A stretch of 12,257 nt of DNA from Bacillota bacterium (GTDB taxonomy: Bacteria > Bacillota > Bacilli > Thermoactinomycetales > DSM-44946), in the NCBI GenBank assembly GCA_021793745.1, contig JAJYSD010000005.1:1-12257 (forward strand), given 5' to 3'. Within the stretch, counting starts at the first letter, position 1. Each line of letters opens with the position of its first letter. The notes under the pieces were generated by a model. That model ran no database searches, was not told the DNA's origin, and worked only from the letters and a program-made list of their open reading frames with translations. The position numbers and the translations under genes were made by a program. Shown here one piece after another: positions 1 to 9,550 of the stretch.

Positions 1-1144
1 CCATCTTCGGGCTGTCTCCCCACACGGGGAAAATCATCTGCGCCCGGAAGAGCGGAATCTGCTCCTCCTTCACCTTTTGCCGGAGCTCCTGGTTGGTGTC
101 TTTCCGTTCCAGGTCGCGCTCGAAGTCCGTCAGGTCGTCGGAATCGGAGTCCCCTTCCCGGGCGGATTCTTTGACATGTTGGATTTGCCCGGTGATGTAC
201 TGGAAGACGTTTTGCAGCTGGGACAGGGCCTGTTCGTGGGGAATGGGGACGGTCCGCACCATCAGTTCCACCGGAAAGTCCAGCTCCCGCACGTGCTGAA
301 AGATTTCCGCCCCGCCGGGAAAGCGGAGCCCCCAGGGCAGCCAGGAGAGGGTGAGGTGGGAAAACCAGCCGCTCTTCTGGCCGTCGGGAAACTCCTTGGT
401 CCACTTGACCATCCCGAGCTGTTTCCCGAAGTCCAGGACCACATCGTGGAGCCCCCGTTCCAGATCGGCCCGGGAGGTGTAGATGTGGCCGTCCTGCACC
501 ACCAGCTCCATCGGTTCCTCCTGGTAGGGAGGGCTGATGCCCCGGCATCCGCACCGTTCGATCAGCCAAAGCACTTCGCTTTCGCTGCAGCGCTCGATGC
601 CGGAGTGGAATTCCTGCCGGATGCGTTGGAAGATTTCCTCCTCCGCCTGTTCAAATCGTTTCCACTCGCTCCAGGGCAGGCGATAGGGTTCGCCGCCCAT
701 GATGTCGTCGATGAGGGCCATGGGATCCCGGATGATCTCATAGAAGTTGCGGGCGATCTCCTCGCCCAGGTTTCCGGTGGCCGGTTCCAGGTCGACGGCA
801 AGATAGAGGGGATGCCGGTAGGGGACCATTTCCCGAATCGCCTCCGCCGTGGACCGGATGTTTTCCTCCCAGGCCTTGAGCCGATCGGCGGGAACCTGGG
901 ATCGGCCCTGATCCAACACATCCTGGGGCGAGTGGGGGACGGGGACCTGCCACCAGGTCAGGGTGTGGGGAAATTCATTGAGAAAGTTGGCCAGATGATC
1001 GCGCAATCCCCGTTTTTCCGCGGAGGAGAGAAACTCGTAGTTCACCTGCGGCACCCGATAAAAGGCCTGGCCTCTCCCGTCTTTCGTGATCATCAGGTTA
1101 CCGGAACGAAAGAGAGCGGGCACCTCAAGCCGTTTCCGTTTCAC
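1..1144 (-). CDS. VirB4/ConE-like conjugation ATPase, N-terminal part (runs off left edge)
   Basis: This is probably the N-terminal half of the VirB4-type motor ATPase of a Gram-positive type IV secretion (conjugation) apparatus, the ConE/TcpF equivalent. About 381 codons are visible and the frame is open to the window edge. No Walker A motif is seen; it would lie further left. The assignment rests mainly on position: it directly follows TcpC-, TcpD- and TcpE-like genes in the conB-conC-conD-conE order of ICEBs1. The protein is soluble in character, rich in Trp and acidic residues, and has an acidic stretch (EGDSDSDDLTDFERD) near residue 335. Start choice: an AAGGAGG SD at 1153-1159 lies 8 nt before a GTG at 1144, but only 2 nt before an in-frame ATG at 1150, so GTG is preferred and ATG is possible. 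A terminator-like hairpin precedes it. It could be another conjugation ATPase type; the C-terminus would settle this. Confidence 0.65.
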   Translation of the reverse strand, partial: MKRKRLEVPALFRSGNLMITKDGRGQAFYRVPQVNYEFLSSAEKRGLRDHLANFLNEFPHTLTWWQVPVPHSPQDVLDQGRSQVPADRLKAWEENIRSTAEAIREMVPYRHPLYLAVDLEPATGNLGEEIARNFYEIIRDPMALIDDIMGGEPYRLPWSEWKRFEQAEEEIFQRIRQEFHSGIERCSESEVLWLIERCGCRGISPPYQEEPMELVVQDGHIYTSRADLERGLHDVVLDFGKQLGMVKWTKEFPDGQKSGWFSHLTLSWLPWGLRFPGGAEIFQHVRELDFPVELMVRTVPIPHEQALSQLQNVFQYITGQIQHVKESAREGDSDSDDLTDFERDLERKDTNQELRQKVKEEQIPLFRAQMIFPVWGDSPKM

Positions 1145-1161
1145 ATTCATACCCTCCTTGA

Positions 1162-1911: not shown

Positions 1912-2718
1912 TTACTCCCGCGGGATTTCCGGAATGGTCTTTTTGATCAACCAGCGGTTTCCGCTCTTCTCCACTTGGAATTGAAAGGTCTGAGGAACCG
2001 CCTCTCCATCGATTTTCAGCCGAACCCGGGCGTCAATCTGCAGCTGGTCCTTCTCCGGTCGGCTGACGTGAATCCTCTCCAGTCCCCCGTACTCGGCTTT
2101 GAGGGATGGGGACAACACCCGCCGCGGCCGGCTGTCGCTGAAGAGCAAGGCCAGGTCCTGGGGAGTCCCCTGGGTGTACTGCCGGAAGAAGGATTCGACC
2201 AGGGAACGGGCCGCTTGCGTGGTGGCCGAATCCGTCACCGGCGGGAGGGGCTCCTCTTTTGGGGCCTTCGCCGGCGTCGGCTCGGGAATGAAGTTCGGCA
2301 GGCCGATCACCCCGAAACGATCCTGACGCACGGTGACCGGAACCGACAGATATACGACCTGTCCTTCATCCAGGAGAGCGCGAACGGTGACATTCGCCTT
2401 CTCTTTGCCCGAGGGTTTCATATCCCATGCGATGATATTTTCCACCTTTCGGGGTTTCCCGAAGGCCGGCGGATTGAATCCCTCTGCGGCAAACTTTTTG
2501 GCCTCTTCCAGGTTGCCCGTCAACCAGAAATGGGTGAAATAGACGGCGTAGTTTTCCGCCCCTCTGCGGGCTTCCAGCTGAACGGGCGCGCTTTTGGTGT
2601 TGTCGGTGTCCGCTGCGGCAGGGGCCCGGGGCGGGCGGAGAATGTCGTAGGCTCCCTTGGCTGCGAGGAAGAGGAGGATCGCCGTGATCACGATCATCCG
2701 CACCCTTCGCCAGTACAC
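1912..2718 (-). CDS. TcpC/ConB-like conjugation protein with NTF2-like periplasmic-side domains
   Basis: This 268-aa protein resembles the TcpC family (pCW3 TcpC, ICEBs1 ConB/YddB), a bitopic VirB8-like scaffold of the conjugation channel. A basic N-terminus (MYWRRVR) precedes one transmembrane helix at about residues 8-24. Two extracytoplasmic segments follow, compatible with two NTF2-like folds. One is at about 50-145 (ENYAVYFTHFWLTGNLEEAK...). The other is at about 168-268 (SLVESFFRQYTQGTPQDL ... GNRWLIKKTIPE). They are joined by a Pro-rich linker (PEPTPAKAPKEEPLPP). Start: GTG at 2718 with a GGGGG SD 7 nt upstream; no ATG lies nearer than residue 8. It is the first gene of the four-gene module, separated from the sortase gene by about 200 bp with no promoter clear to me. 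Confidence 0.75.
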   Translation of the reverse strand: MYWRRVRMIVITAILLFLAAKGAYDILRPPRAPAAADTDNTKSAPVQLEARRGAENYAVYFTHFWLTGNLEEAKKFAAEGFNPPAFGKPRKVENIIAWDMKPSGKEKANVTVRALLDEGQVVYLSVPVTVRQDRFGVIGLPNFIPEPTPAKAPKEEPLPPVTDSATTQAARSLVESFFRQYTQGTPQDLALLFSDSRPRRVLSPSLKAEYGGLERIHVSRPEKDQLQIDARVRLKIDGEAVPQTFQFQVEKSGNRWLIKKTIPEIPRE

Positions 2719-2893
2719 GCCTTTTCCCCCTTTCGGTCAGAAGTGAAACGGGAATCGATAGGGGAGGTGGTCCGCGAAGCGCCTTGTCACGGCGAAGGTC
2801 GCGGTTTCCTCCGACGCCCCGGCAAGGGTTTGCCGAGGCTGTCAGGGACGCGGTGATCTCCACAACCACTATCGATTTTCGCTATAACGGAAA
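2719..2893. other. Intergenic gap upstream of the conjugation module with inverted repeats
   Basis: This 175-bp GC-rich gap separates the sortase terminator from the TcpC-like gene. It holds a 9-bp perfect inverted repeat, AATCGATAG (2753-2761) and CTATCGATT (2869-2877), placed about 107 bp apart. Between them is a hairpin, CGGCAA-gggt-TTGCCG (2820-2835). I see no convincing sigma-A promoter on the minus strand, although the module would be expected to start here. An open frame on the minus strand (from 2869) runs on into the TcpC-like gene out of frame and has no usual protein character, so it is not called. Confidence 0.4.
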
Positions 2894-2914
2894 GGGACAG
2901 AGGCCCTCTGTCCC
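2891..2914 (-). terminator. Hairpin terminator after the sortase gene
   Basis: A perfect 9-bp stem (GGGACAGAG / CTCTGTCCC, 2894-2902 with 2906-2914) with a 3-nt loop lies 8 nt past the sortase stop codon. On the minus strand it is followed by TTTCCGTTAT, a weak T tract. It probably ends the LPKTA-sortase transcript, at least partly, and separates it from the conjugation genes. Confidence 0.6.
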
Positions 2915-2922
2915 GTGGTTCA

Positions 2923-3531
2923 TCAGGAATTGGGAATCATCCTGGTCAGTTTTGCCTCGACGAGGTAGCGCTTGGGCGCATTGCCGACGTAGTGAAAGGG
3001 ATAACAGGTGACGAGTAGCAGTTTGGCCTGTCCTTTACCGTTGGATCTTACGGTTTCGGATCGATCGGCAATCCATGAACGGGTCACCCGGAAGGTGAAC
3101 CGTCCCGCCTCCGTTTCCACAAGGATGGGGTCGCCCTTTTCCAGTTCACCGATTTGCCGAAGTCTGGTTTCCCGGTGTCCACCGATCACCGAGGTGTCGG
3201 GTTCTCCCGGCAGGACACTGGTTTCCGCGTGACCGATCCCCTTGCGGAGCTGGGGCTCCCTCGTTCCTTCCACCAGAGGGAATTCCGCGTTGATCCGGGG
3301 GATGGACAGTTTTCCAAAGATTTGTCCCCGCTCCGGCCGGCGGTCATAGACCACCCACTTGGGAGATTCCGATTTCGTCGGAGGGGCTGTCTCCCGGGAG
3401 GTTTGGGCCGATGTGGAGGCGTCGGGGACCGTTTGGCGATCCATGTTCCAGAGCTGCCAAATCTCCCACAGTCCGAAGGCGAAGAGCCCCAGACCCGCCA
3501 GGGTGATGAGGGAAAAGACGTGTCGCTTCAC
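2923..3531 (-). CDS. Class D sortase
   Basis: This is a cell-wall transpeptidase that would cleave an LPxTA sorting signal and join the protein to peptidoglycan on the outer face of the membrane. It has 202 aa. The N-terminal hydrophobic helix (about 5-26) serves as signal anchor. A Ser/Thr-rich linker (35-58) follows, then the catalytic domain. Visible landmarks are GKLSIPRI (73-80), GGHRET with catalytic His119, LLVTCYPF with nucleophile Cys176, and Arg188 in KRYLVEAKL. The LVTCYPF context and the N-terminal anchor point to class D (type D-1) sortases, which prefer LPNTA-like motifs. Start: GTG at 3531; the SD (GGAGA) is close to it, so translation is perhaps coupled to the upstream gene, 6 nt away. 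That upstream gene encodes an LPKTA protein, the obvious substrate. The downstream hairpin at 2894-2914 ends the unit. Confidence 0.9.
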   Translation of the reverse strand: MKRHVFSLITLAGLGLFAFGLWEIWQLWNMDRQTVPDASTSAQTSRETAPPTKSESPKWVVYDRRPERGQIFGKLSIPRINAEFPLVEGTREPQLRKGIGHAETSVLPGEPDTSVIGGHRETRLRQIGELEKGDPILVETEAGRFTFRVTRSWIADRSETVRSNGKGQAKLLLVTCYPFHYVGNAPKRYLVEAKLTRMIPNS

Positions 3532-4774: not shown

Positions 4775-5722
4775 ATGGAAGTGGTTAAAATTGCCCCCCG
4801 GGGTTATTGTTACGGTGTTGTCGATGCCATGGTGCTGGCCCAGCAGGCGGCGAAGGATCCCACCCTTCCGCGGCCGATCCATATCTTGGGGATGATCGTG
4901 CACAATTCGCATGTGGTGGAAGCCTTCAAAAAGGAAGGGATTATCACCCTGGACGGGGATAACCGCCTGGAGCTGCTGGATCAGGTGGACAAGGGAACGG
5001 TGATTTTTACCGCCCACGGGGTGTCGCCGGAAGTGCGGCGCCGCGCCCAGGAGAAGGGTTTGACGGTGGTCGATGCGACGTGCCCCGATGTGACCCGTAC
5101 CCATGACCTGATTCGGGAGAAGGTCGCCGAGGGGTACGAGGTGGTTTACATCGGCAAGAGCGGCCACCCCGAGCCGGAGGGAGCGATGGGAGTGGCTCCC
5201 GGCCGCGTCCATCTGGTGGAGCGGGAAGCGGATGTGGATGCCCTCGACCTGAAGGCCGACAAGGTCCTGGTTACCAACCAGACCACCATGAGCAAGTGGG
5301 ATACCGAGCATCTGATGAAACGGGTGAAGGAGAAATACCCCCAGGCGGAGATCTACAATGAGATCTGCTTGGCGACCCAGCTTCGGCAGGAAGCCGTGGC
5401 CAAACAGGCCCGGGGGACGGATCTGGTGATCGTGGTCGGCGATCCCCGCAGCAACAACTCCAACCGGTTGGCCCAGGTGTCGAAGGAGATCGCCGGTGTG
5501 GATGCATACCGGGTGGCCGACGTGACGGAAATCGACCCGGAGTGGCTGAAGGGGAAGAAAAAGGTGGGCGTGACCGCCGGCGCTTCCACCCCCACCCCGA
5601 TCACCCGGGAAGTGATCCAATATCTGGAGCAGTTCGACGAAAACGATCCTTCCACCTGGAAGCCGAAACGGATGGTGGACCGGACTCGTCTCCTTCCCCC
5701 CGTTCGGCAGAAAAAGCGCTGA
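4775..5722 (+). CDS. ispH: 4-hydroxy-3-methylbut-2-enyl diphosphate reductase
   Basis: This is the last enzyme of the methylerythritol phosphate pathway. It is a cytosolic [4Fe-4S] enzyme that reduces HMBPP to isopentenyl and dimethylallyl diphosphate. It has 315 aa, the usual length in Bacillus. The three cluster cysteines are visible: Cys12 (RGYCYGV), Cys103 (DATCPDV) and Cys198 (EICLAT). Substrate-site residues are also present: His43 (VHNSH), His81 (TAHGVSPE), His131 and Glu133 (GHPEPEG), the NQTTMS stretch near 168-173, and RSNNSNR (225-231). The C-terminal tail is short and basic (RQKKR). The ATG has a GGGAGGGG SD 9 nt upstream. It is monocistronic, with its own promoter (4693-4722) and a terminator just past the stop. 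Essential housekeeping gene, so it gives a chromosomal anchor for the conjugation module to its left. Confidence 0.98.
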
Positions 5723-6150: not shown

Positions 6151-6180
6151 AAAAAAAGAACCCTCCGCCATCGGAGGGTT
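6151..6180 (-). terminator. Rho-independent terminator of the FHIPEP-domain gene
   Basis: A perfect 9-bp stem, AACCCTCCG (6172-6180) with CGGAGGGTT (6159-6167) on the minus strand, has a 4-nt loop and is followed by C and seven T's (6151-6157). The stem starts inside the stop codon of the gene it ends. Confidence 0.9.
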
Positions 6181-6926
6181 CATTTGACGAAGCCGATTAC
6201 ATTGCCGGTACTTTTTTTCGCGGGCATGCGCCGCTTCCGCTTTTCGGCGATAAATTTGGCGATGGATTCGGGATGTGGATGGGTCCATTCCGGCGGGGCA
6301 TACCCGTGAGGGGGATGGGAAATGTAGTAGTCCAAAATGTTTTCCAATAGCTCCTCAAAGGGGTGGATGGGGATTCGATCCCGAAGGAGGAGTTTGATCA
6401 CCGACCAGAGGAGGCCCGGTGTCATTCCCCGTTCCTTCAGCTCGTCGACCAGTTCGGGGACGTGGGATCGCGCCTGTTTCAGCCAGCGGACCGCCAGCTC
6501 GTAGGTGAAGAGCTCATCCACCCGGGAGTGGAGGATGTGGCGCAGGTGGGCGGTGATGATCTCCCGGGCCGTTTCCCCCTCGCCCTCTGTCCAATACCCT
6601 TCGACCCGTTTCATCGGGTGAATGGCGGGTCGATCGGACTCCTGTTGGGTGGAGAATCGCAGCGGCGGATACAGCTCGCCGTCGGCCACCCGCCTGCCCC
6701 GGATGCGGATGACATAACGGTTCGGCTCCTCGGCGGAACCGGTTTTAATCCGGACGGCGGGCAGATAGACCCCTCGCTCCTGGAGAACCGATTTCCGCAG
6801 GCTCTGGATGGTCGCGGCAAAGTCGGATTCTTTCATCAAGTATTCGTATAAGGCCGGCCCGATCTCCAGCCGGATGGTTTCTGCCTTTTGATCCGTATAG
6901 GCATCGGACAGATTCCAGTCTGCCAT
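6180..6926 (-). CDS. Free-standing FHIPEP (FlhA cytoplasmic domain-like) protein
   Basis: This 248-aa soluble protein reads like the cytoplasmic part of FlhA/YscV (FHIPEP family), the export-gate protein of flagellar and type III secretion. Residues 17-85 fit the first FlhA-C subdomain: IRLEIGPALYEYL, then SLRKSVLQERGVYLPAVRI, then RYVIRIRGRRVADGELYP. Residues about 120-200 fit the helical region: REIITAHLRHIL, DELFTYELAVRWL, VPELVDELKERG, LLLRDRIPIHPFEELLENI. The eight-helix membrane domain and the last FlhA-C subdomain are missing. In their place is a His/Pro-rich stretch (203-220) and a basic tail (KRKRRMPAKK). A GGAGGAATTCC SD precedes the ATG at 6926. There is no flagellar or secretion gene nearby. 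It has its own terminator; its promoter is unclear (AT-rich TATATTATAT near 6995-7005). Function unknown; it may bind export-chaperone-like partners. Confidence 0.78.
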   Translation of the reverse strand: MADWNLSDAYTDQKAETIRLEIGPALYEYLMKESDFAATIQSLRKSVLQERGVYLPAVRIKTGSAEEPNRYVIRIRGRRVADGELYPPLRFSTQQESDRPAIHPMKRVEGYWTEGEGETAREIITAHLRHILHSRVDELFTYELAVRWLKQARSHVPELVDELKERGMTPGLLWSVIKLLLRDRIPIHPFEELLENILDYYISHPPHGYAPPEWTHPHPESIAKFIAEKRKRRMPAKKSTGNVIGFVK

Positions 6927-7048: not shown

Positions 7049-7783
7049 TCAATCGGAGGCTTCTCTTTTTCGAAGGAGCAATGATCGGATCTCTTCCAGG
7101 ACCGGCATCTCCTTGCGCTCCTCGTCGGTAACCCGTTCCCAGTCGATCCCGGAGGGCTTGGGGTACGGGGTGCGGGTGGCCATCGTTTCCCGTTCGGTCA
7201 CAATCCAATCGACGGCGAGGTCGAAGGGCTCAAAGGGAATCTCCTCCTCCACCACCTGGATGGAATGGACCGTGGTGACCACAGGGACGGGAGGATTGCC
7301 CAACTCCCGCAGGATGGCGTATTCCCGGTCGGCGTACCCTTCCCCTTTTCCCAGCCGCCGCCCGTCCCGATGGACGGCGACGGAGCCGACGACGATCAGA
7401 TCGACGGCGGGGAGTTCCGACAGGGGCAGTTCCCGGCCGTATTCCCGAAGCCGAGAAAGACTGGCAGCCCGGCGTTCTTCGCCGGGGGGAACCCATTCGG
7501 GACGCACCTGGATGAACCCGGCCTTTAGACGAGGCGTAGGGACGAGCAGCGTCTTTCCGTCCTTCAGCACCTGGGCGCGGAGGGGGAGTTGGGGCGAATC
7601 CGGATTCACTTTCACCGTTCGCGCCGTTTGGTAGGCTTCCAACTGCGTGACGCGGTGGGCCGCCTGTTCAGCCCCCTGAAAATTGGGAATCCGCCCGGTC
7701 AAGGGCAGGGGAAAACGGCCGACACGGGCCTCTTCCATCGCCTTCCATACGCGCATGCGGATTGCCTGCTTGTCCGGGGCCAT
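7049..7783 (-). CDS. 5-formyltetrahydrofolate cyclo-ligase family protein (MTHFSD-like branch)
   Basis: This belongs to the family of ATP-dependent 5-formyl-THF cyclo-ligases (methenyl-THF synthetases), cytosolic folate one-carbon enzymes. It has 244 aa, longer than the roughly 180-200 aa of ordinary bacterial enzymes. Landmarks: GRIPNFQGAEQAA (30-42), LLVPTPRLKAGF (79-90), VDLIVVGSVAVHRDGRRLGKGEGYADREYAIL (near 128-158, split here as the nucleotide/folate-binding region), and TTVHSIQVVEEEIP (170-183). The usual GGGYYDR loop is replaced by GKGEGYADRE, as in archaeal and MTHFSD-type members, so the true substrate is uncertain. Start: ATG at 7783 with a GAGGAGGCG SD at 7791-7799 overlapping the yfhH stop; an in-frame ATG at 7813 would overlap yfhH and lacks an SD. 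It is the second gene of an operon with yfhH. Confidence 0.82.
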   Translation of the reverse strand: MAPDKQAIRMRVWKAMEEARVGRFPLPLTGRIPNFQGAEQAAHRVTQLEAYQTARTVKVNPDSPQLPLRAQVLKDGKTLLVPTPRLKAGFIQVRPEWVPPGEERRAASLSRLREYGRELPLSELPAVDLIVVGSVAVHRDGRRLGKGEGYADREYAILRELGNPPVPVVTTVHSIQVVEEEIPFEPFDLAVDWIVTERETMATRTPYPKPSGIDWERVTDEERKEMPVLEEIRSLLLRKREASD

Positions 7784-7796
7784 CCTCGACGCCTCC

Positions 7797-8114
7797 TCAA
7801 TCCACCGGTTCATCCGGTTTCAGAATCCCGATCGGCAGGGCGACGGATTCGGCTTCCCCTTCCCAGTGTCCCCAGGCCATAACCCCCCTGAGGTATTCCA
7901 CCAAAAAGGGTTTATCGGATCCTTCCGCCTTGTATCTGCGGCCGGGTTTGATTTGATGCGGATCCATCAGGTAGGACTTGGCCATATTGAGCCGTTGACG
8001 GAGGATCTCCTGTTCGCTGAGGAGACCTTTTCTCTGCGCCCGTTTCCATTCTTCTTCTAGGCGCCCGATCTCCCGCCGGAGTTCCTCCTCATTCATTTCA
8101 CTGAATAGGCGCAT
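7797..8114 (-). CDS. yfhH: YfhH family protein (DUF1811)
   Basis: This 105-aa cytosolic protein matches the DUF1811/YfhH family found in Bacillales; its function is not established. The N-terminal half is a charged helical segment (MNEEELRREIGRLEEEWKRA). It is followed by RQRLNMAKSYLMDPHQIKPG, the best-conserved stretch compared with B. subtilis YfhH. A small beta-rich region comes next (YKAEGSDKPFLVEYLRGVMAWGHW) and then ALPIGILKP near the end. A CGGAGGATTGAC SD precedes the ATG at 8114. It is first in an operon with the cyclo-ligase-like gene, 13 nt downstream, and has its own promoter at 8147-8175. Confidence 0.9.
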   Translation of the reverse strand: MRLFSEMNEEELRREIGRLEEEWKRAQRKGLLSEQEILRQRLNMAKSYLMDPHQIKPGRRYKAEGSDKPFLVEYLRGVMAWGHWEGEAESVALPIGILKPDEPVD

Positions 8115-9163: not shown

Positions 9164-9550
9164 ATGACCAAACGCTACATTCCCCGGGTGCAGGAGGCGG
9201 CCATTCCCGAAGATGGGGCATGGGCGGAATTGGGGAACGAGAATGTGCTCGTCTTGTCGATCCCCGAGTGGGGGGACGTGGTGGAGCGCCCCTCCAGGGG
9301 ATATCGTTACGCCTGGTTGTATGACCGGGAAAAAAGGACGTATATTTTCTGCTTCCGTCTGGAGGACGGGACGGAAAAGGCCATCGCCTTTCCGAAGGAT
9401 CACGCGGGATTGCTTCTCCAGGACGGGCGCGCCTACGAGCCCTTTTCCTTTCTGATCACATCCCGTCCGCTGGCGGAGGCGGATGACGACAGCCCGTCGC
9501 TTCTCCTTCGAAAAGTGAAGCTGGTTCGTCACCCGGAGGCGGGTTGGTGA
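9164..9550 (+). CDS. 128-aa protein of unknown function
   Basis: A well-supported gene with no family I recognise. An AGGGGAGAGAG SD precedes the ATG, and it starts 22 nt after the metalloenzyme gene in the same operon. The protein is soluble, with many aromatic residues and short beta-like stretches (NVLVLSIPEWGDVVE, YRYAWLYDREKRTYIFCFRL, KAIAFPKDHAGLLLQDG). It has one cysteine and no signal peptide or membrane helix. Its end overlaps the next small gene by GTGA. Conserved context with the metalloenzyme would suggest a shared job, but the sequence does not say which. Confidence 0.8.
   Translation: MTKRYIPRVQEAAIPEDGAWAELGNENVLVLSIPEWGDVVERPSRGYRYAWLYDREKRTYIFCFRLEDGTEKAIAFPKDHAGLLLQDGRAYEPFSFLITSRPLAEADDDSPSLLLRKVKLVRHPEAGW

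Follow-up and report, generated by a model that had tools for sequence, protein, structure and literature searches.

A 248-residue protein encoded in the window (the whole 12,257-nucleotide stretch of DNA analysed here, from contig JAJYSD010000005.1 of the Bacillota assembly GCA_021793745.1, order Thermoactinomycetales) is, as we hold with near certainty, a homologue of the cytoplasmic region of FlhA. The homology and the domain content are established, as are membership of a single family of short proteins, purifying selection on that family, a constant chromosomal neighbourhood and persistence in genomes where export genes were not found. Taking these together, we propose, tentatively and at rather less than even confidence, that this FlhA-C-like protein is an old, truncated and remodelled FlhA relative that would associate with itself in solution and serve a new partner as scaffold or adaptor.

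A truncated homologue of the FlhA cytoplasmic region

The protein matches the Pfam family FHIPEP (PF00771) with E 1.5e-23 and 83.7 bits versus a cut-off of 29.1, residues 12-201 aligning with positions 327-534 of the 657-position profile. A profile search was the test that the preliminary description, made from the sequence alone, had set for its claim of FlhA/FHIPEP cytoplasmic homology, and that claim stands. The best PDB relatives are Salmonella FlhA-C chains (E ~5e-11), and when the short family was aligned profile to profile with full FlhA, the alignment spanned 205 columns at a probability of 99.0, running through D1, D2 and D3 to the last D3 helix. A profile of 20 full FlhA sequences scores 21 short proteins at 21.5-61.4 bits; the best of 420 shuffled sequences reached 9.6 bits (233 reported) and the best of 21 reversed ones -1.3 (10 reported).

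Scores against more specific models are far lower. NCBIfam FlhA (TIGR01398) gives E 2.3e-22 and 79 bits, well under its equivalog cut-off of 772.1, and the injectisome export gate SctV/InvA (TIGR01399), which belongs to the same cytoplasmic fold family, gives 34.4 bits, likewise far under its equivalog cut-off of 692.25. By score, the short protein is thus a member of the FHIPEP superfamily and not an FlhA.

What it shares with FlhA is the linker end, D1, an eroded part of D2, and D3 up to and including the final helix; what it lacks, relative to FlhA, includes both flanking domains. The Pfam match begins at profile position 327 of 657, with the N-terminal membrane domain absent, and D4 is missing as well, the alignment stopping at the last D3 helix and the protein ending ~17 residues beyond. 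The preliminary description had likewise seen neither a membrane domain nor the last subdomain. It had also considered that the membrane domain might lie in a nearby frame or gene. No second FHIPEP match was found in the window's genome (68% complete), nor any further one in two genomes of its genus that are 99-100% complete, and we reject a membrane domain hidden elsewhere. The names and limits of D1-D4 are those used for FlhA in the literature, and on the window protein the limits are approximate:

6882..6926, minus strand: residues 1-15, N-terminal motif [DE]W-x3-[DE]A[YF] at the position of the FlhA linker end (present in all 21 short proteins)
6669..6881, minus strand: residues 16-86, first part of D1, limits approximate (FlhA consensus residue in 35% of columns)
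6579..6668, minus strand: residues 87-116, eroded D2 (conservation 0.46, lowest of the core)
6531..6578, minus strand: residues 117-132, end of D1, the THL helix of FlhA (alignment)
6324..6530, minus strand: residues 133-201, D3 with family-specific W148, W174, P186, P189 and F190 (conservation 0.71)
6237..6323, minus strand: residues 202-230, HP-x5-PPxW insert followed by HPExIAKFI, the last D3 helix (alignments)
6183..6236, minus strand: residues 231-248, variable, partly basic tail (conservation 0.43, lowest part)

Two details of the preliminary description need amending. Beyond the lost domains, D2 is eroded too, and in the alignment the D2 segment is missing altogether from P0013-P0015, P0020 and P0021. 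The His/Pro-rich basic tail that it saw in place of the lost part is not entirely foreign: the motif HPExIAKFI corresponds in the alignment to FlhA's final D3 helix, with a 12-residue insert ahead of it.

Residues lost, kept and gained

Docking residues named for Salmonella FlhA in passages of PMC5932034 and PMC8166844 (Asp456, Phe459, Thr490 and Leu461) are largely changed in the short family. At the Asp456 position, where the 20 FlhA compared carry Glu or Asp, 16 of the 21 short proteins have His and the other five a deletion; at the Phe459 position 16 carry another residue and five a deletion. Thr490 is still Thr in two (P0007 and P0008), and the Leu461 position holds Val or Ile in 8 of the 16 long forms. 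The GYXLI hinge motif of FlhA is also lost.

Conservation is concentrated in the N-terminal Trp motif, D3 and the HP-x5-PPxW insert. The motif [DE]W-x3-[DE]A[YF] stands in all 21 short proteins where the FlhA linker meets D1. A Trp within the 35 residues before GYXLI is lacking in all 20 Bacilli FlhA compared, so W4 is a feature of the short family; its likeness to the ring-holding Trp354 of Salmonella is only suggestive. In D3, FlhA has Leu, Gln, Ser, Asn and Leu where the short family has W148 (21 of 21), W174 (21), P186 (19), P189 (21) and F190 (20). The insert HP-x5-PPxW is present in 20 of 21 short proteins, in its strict form HPxxGYxPPxW in 17, and its PPxW part in all 21.

One family under purifying selection

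Protein searches yielded 15 clusters from 508 candidates, and a second search, which scored only the 8000 candidates sharing most words, yielded 23. Three partial members aside, family lengths are 220-252 residues, and members come from Planifilum fimeticola, Desmospora, Marininema halotolerans, Kroppenstedtia guangzhouensis and 'Bacillaceae bacterium G1', among others. Among named relatives, P0002, from a Planifilum MAG, is closest to the window protein at 92%, so that Planifilum is the probable genus of the window. One member, P0003, has residues ~25-51 unlike those of its relatives, as though its assembly carried a compensated frame change.

In a maximum-likelihood tree of 41 rows (21 short proteins and 20 full FlhA; 214 of 271 columns), the short proteins make up one side of a branch with support 100/100 and a very long stem. 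The full FlhA were a non-random set, made up of the loci on which the short-family profile scored best and of those of genomes G017, G046 and G069. The tree shows the short proteins to be one family; the place of its origin within FlhA lies outside its reach. In the four pairs with dS below 0.6, three of them within one genus, dN/dS is 0.104, 0.094, 0.084 and 0.155 (the remaining pairs had dS above 1.2 or saturated), and the family is therefore under purifying selection.

A constant locus beside yfhH and ispH

The gene lies on the minus strand, running from an ATG at 6926 to 6180. Its signals and the neighbours that recur with it are:

4775..5722, plus strand: ispH (LytB), convergent with the FlhA-C-like gene and belonging to the conserved locus (Pfam, locus comparison)
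6158..6181, minus strand: intrinsic terminator, a 10-pair stem and then T7, overlapping the stop codon of the FlhA-C-like gene (terminator scan)
6180..6926, minus strand: FlhA-C-like gene including stop codon (ORF, Pfam FHIPEP match, family search, dN/dS)
6939-6933, minus strand: Shine-Dalgarno AAGGAGG, 6 nt 5' of the ATG (read from the sequence)
7049..7813, minus strand: 5-formyltetrahydrofolate cyclo-ligase gene, upstream neighbour (Pfam, locus comparison)
7797..8114, minus strand: yfhH (DUF1811), upstream (Pfam, locus comparison)

The gene thus has a Shine-Dalgarno sequence and a terminator of its own, as first described. The scan gave three terminator-like sites against a mean of 3.4 in shuffles, and only strength and placing argue for the one at this gene. 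A Pfam search of the 13 other ORFs in the window found no flagellar gene, which agrees with the preliminary description, and we reject an operon with flagellar genes.

Elsewhere in the window, a TcpC-like conjugation protein (1912-3531, minus strand; E 5.5e-15) and a sortase-domain protein, both near ispH, suggest a conjugative element adjoining the locus; a 383-residue ORF at 2-1150 (minus strand), which runs off the window and has no Pfam match, may be part of it. On the other side, a 128-residue ORF of no Pfam family (9164-9550, plus strand) adjoins a metalloenzyme gene in many of the compared loci.

Across the order, yfhH lies upstream on the same strand in all 11 genomes that carry the FlhA-C-like gene. 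In seven of them 22-63 nt separate the two genes, counted from where the tblastn match ends, and in the other four (G000, G001, G002 and G004) the cyclo-ligase gene stands between them. On the other side ispH is convergent, with one or two genes intervening in several genomes. Of the 30 order genomes with YfhH, 19 lack the FlhA-C-like gene, so YfhH also acts in its absence. In 12 of those 19, yfhH and ispH lie within the same 3.3 kb with no short-family match, which fits either a clean loss or an original empty site. Column 95 of the YfhH alignment is Gly in 11 of 11 carriers versus 5 of 19 non-carriers, a contrast from which we claim nothing because the groups partly follow phylogeny. We regard YfhH as a quite unlikely partner of the FlhA-C-like protein.

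The short family also occurs in two genomes from outside the order, G046 and G069 of family f11, where the setting differs. A tblastn search of both loci (13.5 and 19.5 kb) found no yfhH, and in both a trypsin/PDZ protease gene (htrA-like) adjoins the FlhA-C-like gene. No flagellar gene appeared among the 10 neighbours searched, and the neighbours are not those of the order, save for ispH some kilobases off.

Persistence where export genes were not found

Eleven of 42 genomes of the order carry the short family, 10 of them with an unbroken frame. Full FlhA, FlhB, FliP and FliS were each found in one of the 42, in every case G017. Profile searches found none of the four in the other 10 carriers (the window's genome 68% complete, the other nine 99-100%), the gate parts covered besides FlhA being FlhB and FliP. 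This is the outcome of the distribution survey that the preliminary description had proposed. The searches with PF00771, PF01312 and PF00813, which we take to cover injectisome parts as well, found nothing else in the order carriers except in G017. Since most order carriers show no flagellar export genes, the FlhA-C-like protein probably does a job other than flagellar export.

In G017, which has a full FlhA too, the short copy is broken into two pieces that lie in different frames. P0018 is unbroken and 93-96% identical to the two pieces, so the break is either recent or a sequencing error. The same genome holds, at G017:C1:1431923-1432141, a match confined to the C-terminal part of FlhB (profile 262-335 of 335). 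Proteins of this kind, known as the YlqH/FhlB type, resemble the present case in being the cytoplasmic part of a gate protein as a separate gene. The gate protein is a different one, and no FlhB match of any kind was found in 41 of the 42 order genomes. FlhB-C is accordingly not the partner there, and we reject an FlhB-C-only partner; the search for flhB-like partners suggested earlier thus returned nothing in these genomes.

The wider samples each comprised 398 genomes drawn evenly from larger groups. In the class, the profile matched 287 of 398. Among the matches listed (E to ~5e-15), the short family was present in 13 genomes, the 11 order carriers and the two f11 genomes, both of which also carry full FlhA; the other matches listed have open frames of at least 676 residues, as full FlhA does. 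In the phylum sample, one of 398 genomes matched at E up to 1e-27, the window's own.

Proposed role and alternatives

FlhA homology lacking the gate, surroundings free of flagellar genes and the absence of decay together support the earlier suggestion of a repurposed module. Passages on Salmonella FlhA suggest what may have been kept and what lost: the linker attaches to D1 and D3 of the adjacent subunit and lends the ring stability (PMC8166844), the cleft between D1 and D2 is where chaperones bind (PMC5932034), and FliJ has been modelled between D4 domains (PMC9431611), while the ring interface is reportedly not significantly conserved, according to a passage in PMC5932034. The regions that hold FlhA-C subunits together (linker end, D1 and D3) would thus have been retained and those serving export (membrane domain, chaperone dimple and D4 with its modelled FliJ site) lost, while an aromatic and proline surface would have been gained on D3 (W148, W174, P186, P189, F190 and the PPxW insert).

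Kept in the order as a soluble protein at the constant locus yfhH - gene - ispH, it would form by self-association a soluble oligomer, perhaps ring-like, that presents the D3 surface to a cytosolic partner. From ring parts kept, export parts lost and a new D3 face we infer a self-associating scaffold or adaptor, a mechanism that we consider possible though distinctly doubtful, the oligomer and its surface being predicted from sequence. Some non-chaperone partner may be bound, for example through D3. A bolder version, a free cytosolic ring or scaffold domesticated from the self-assembling half of the export gate, with a new aromatic and proline face and acting with YfhH in flagellum-less bacteria as a non-secretory use of the FlhA/SctV ring, we hold to be unlikely as a whole.

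The main rival is a flagellar one, in which the short protein would be an accessory that joins or caps the FlhA ring of the export gate, originally and still today in flagellates (f11 and G017), and from this role a second task in non-flagellates would have come. Its presence beside full FlhA in both f11 genomes, and as a split copy in the only sampled order genome with full FlhA, speaks for such a history, and in f11 and G017 the protein may have a flagellar role. However, 10 of the 11 order carriers show no gate, the f11 loci adjoin the htrA-like gene with no flagellar gene among the neighbours searched, and most class genomes matched show FlhA-sized frames only, among the matches listed, so full FlhA needs no short partner; we judge this history unlikely, though it deserves weight. 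Docking of chaperone-cargo complexes as in FlhA, the role the preliminary description had offered as an example, shares the fold family and, in the 248-residue form, D1 with part of D2, and could draw on the occasional Thr490 and on the Val or Ile at Leu461. We nevertheless give it very little credence: the Asp456 and Phe459 positions are altered or deleted in every short protein, and FliS, the flagellar chaperone covered by the search, was not found in 41 of the 42 order genomes.

Nucleic-acid binding, with D3 as a helix-turn-helix-like unit aided by the basic residues near the C-terminus, takes its cue from a weak match of residues 147-184 (window 6375-6488, minus strand) to a ribosomal S13/S15 N-terminal domain (E 0.00049; 20.5 bits versus a cut-off of 25.4). 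FlhA D3 explains the same stretch and the tail is the least conserved part of the protein; we judge the S15-like match to be chance or convergence and such a function very unlikely. Barely credible, finally, is a decaying, functionless remnant of a lost flhA. The lack of full FlhA in 41 of the 42 order genomes and the split G017 copy would suit it, but dN/dS of 0.08-0.16 at unsaturated dS, the same ends and family-specific residues in 21 proteins, a single 100/100 branch apart from the sampled FlhA, and frames unbroken in 10 of 11 order carriers, with P0018 intact beside the broken copy, all count against decay, as the preliminary description had argued.

Implications

Sequences of this family are already in databases under a misleading name: the 'FHIPEP family type III secretion protein' of Desmospora, Marininema and Planifilum is the short family itself. 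Of the 11 order carriers, 10 show no gate for the type III secretion that this name implies. Among the best-ranked literature matches (titles and abstract openings), we found no report of a stand-alone FlhA-C protein. Genomes annotated with this name are not thereby flagellated or competent for secretion. The known role of the FlhA cytoplasmic domain is that of a docking ring in flagellar export, and a relative that has neither the channel nor the key docking residues and is still selected in bacteria that show no gate would part the fold's own abilities from its role in secretion.
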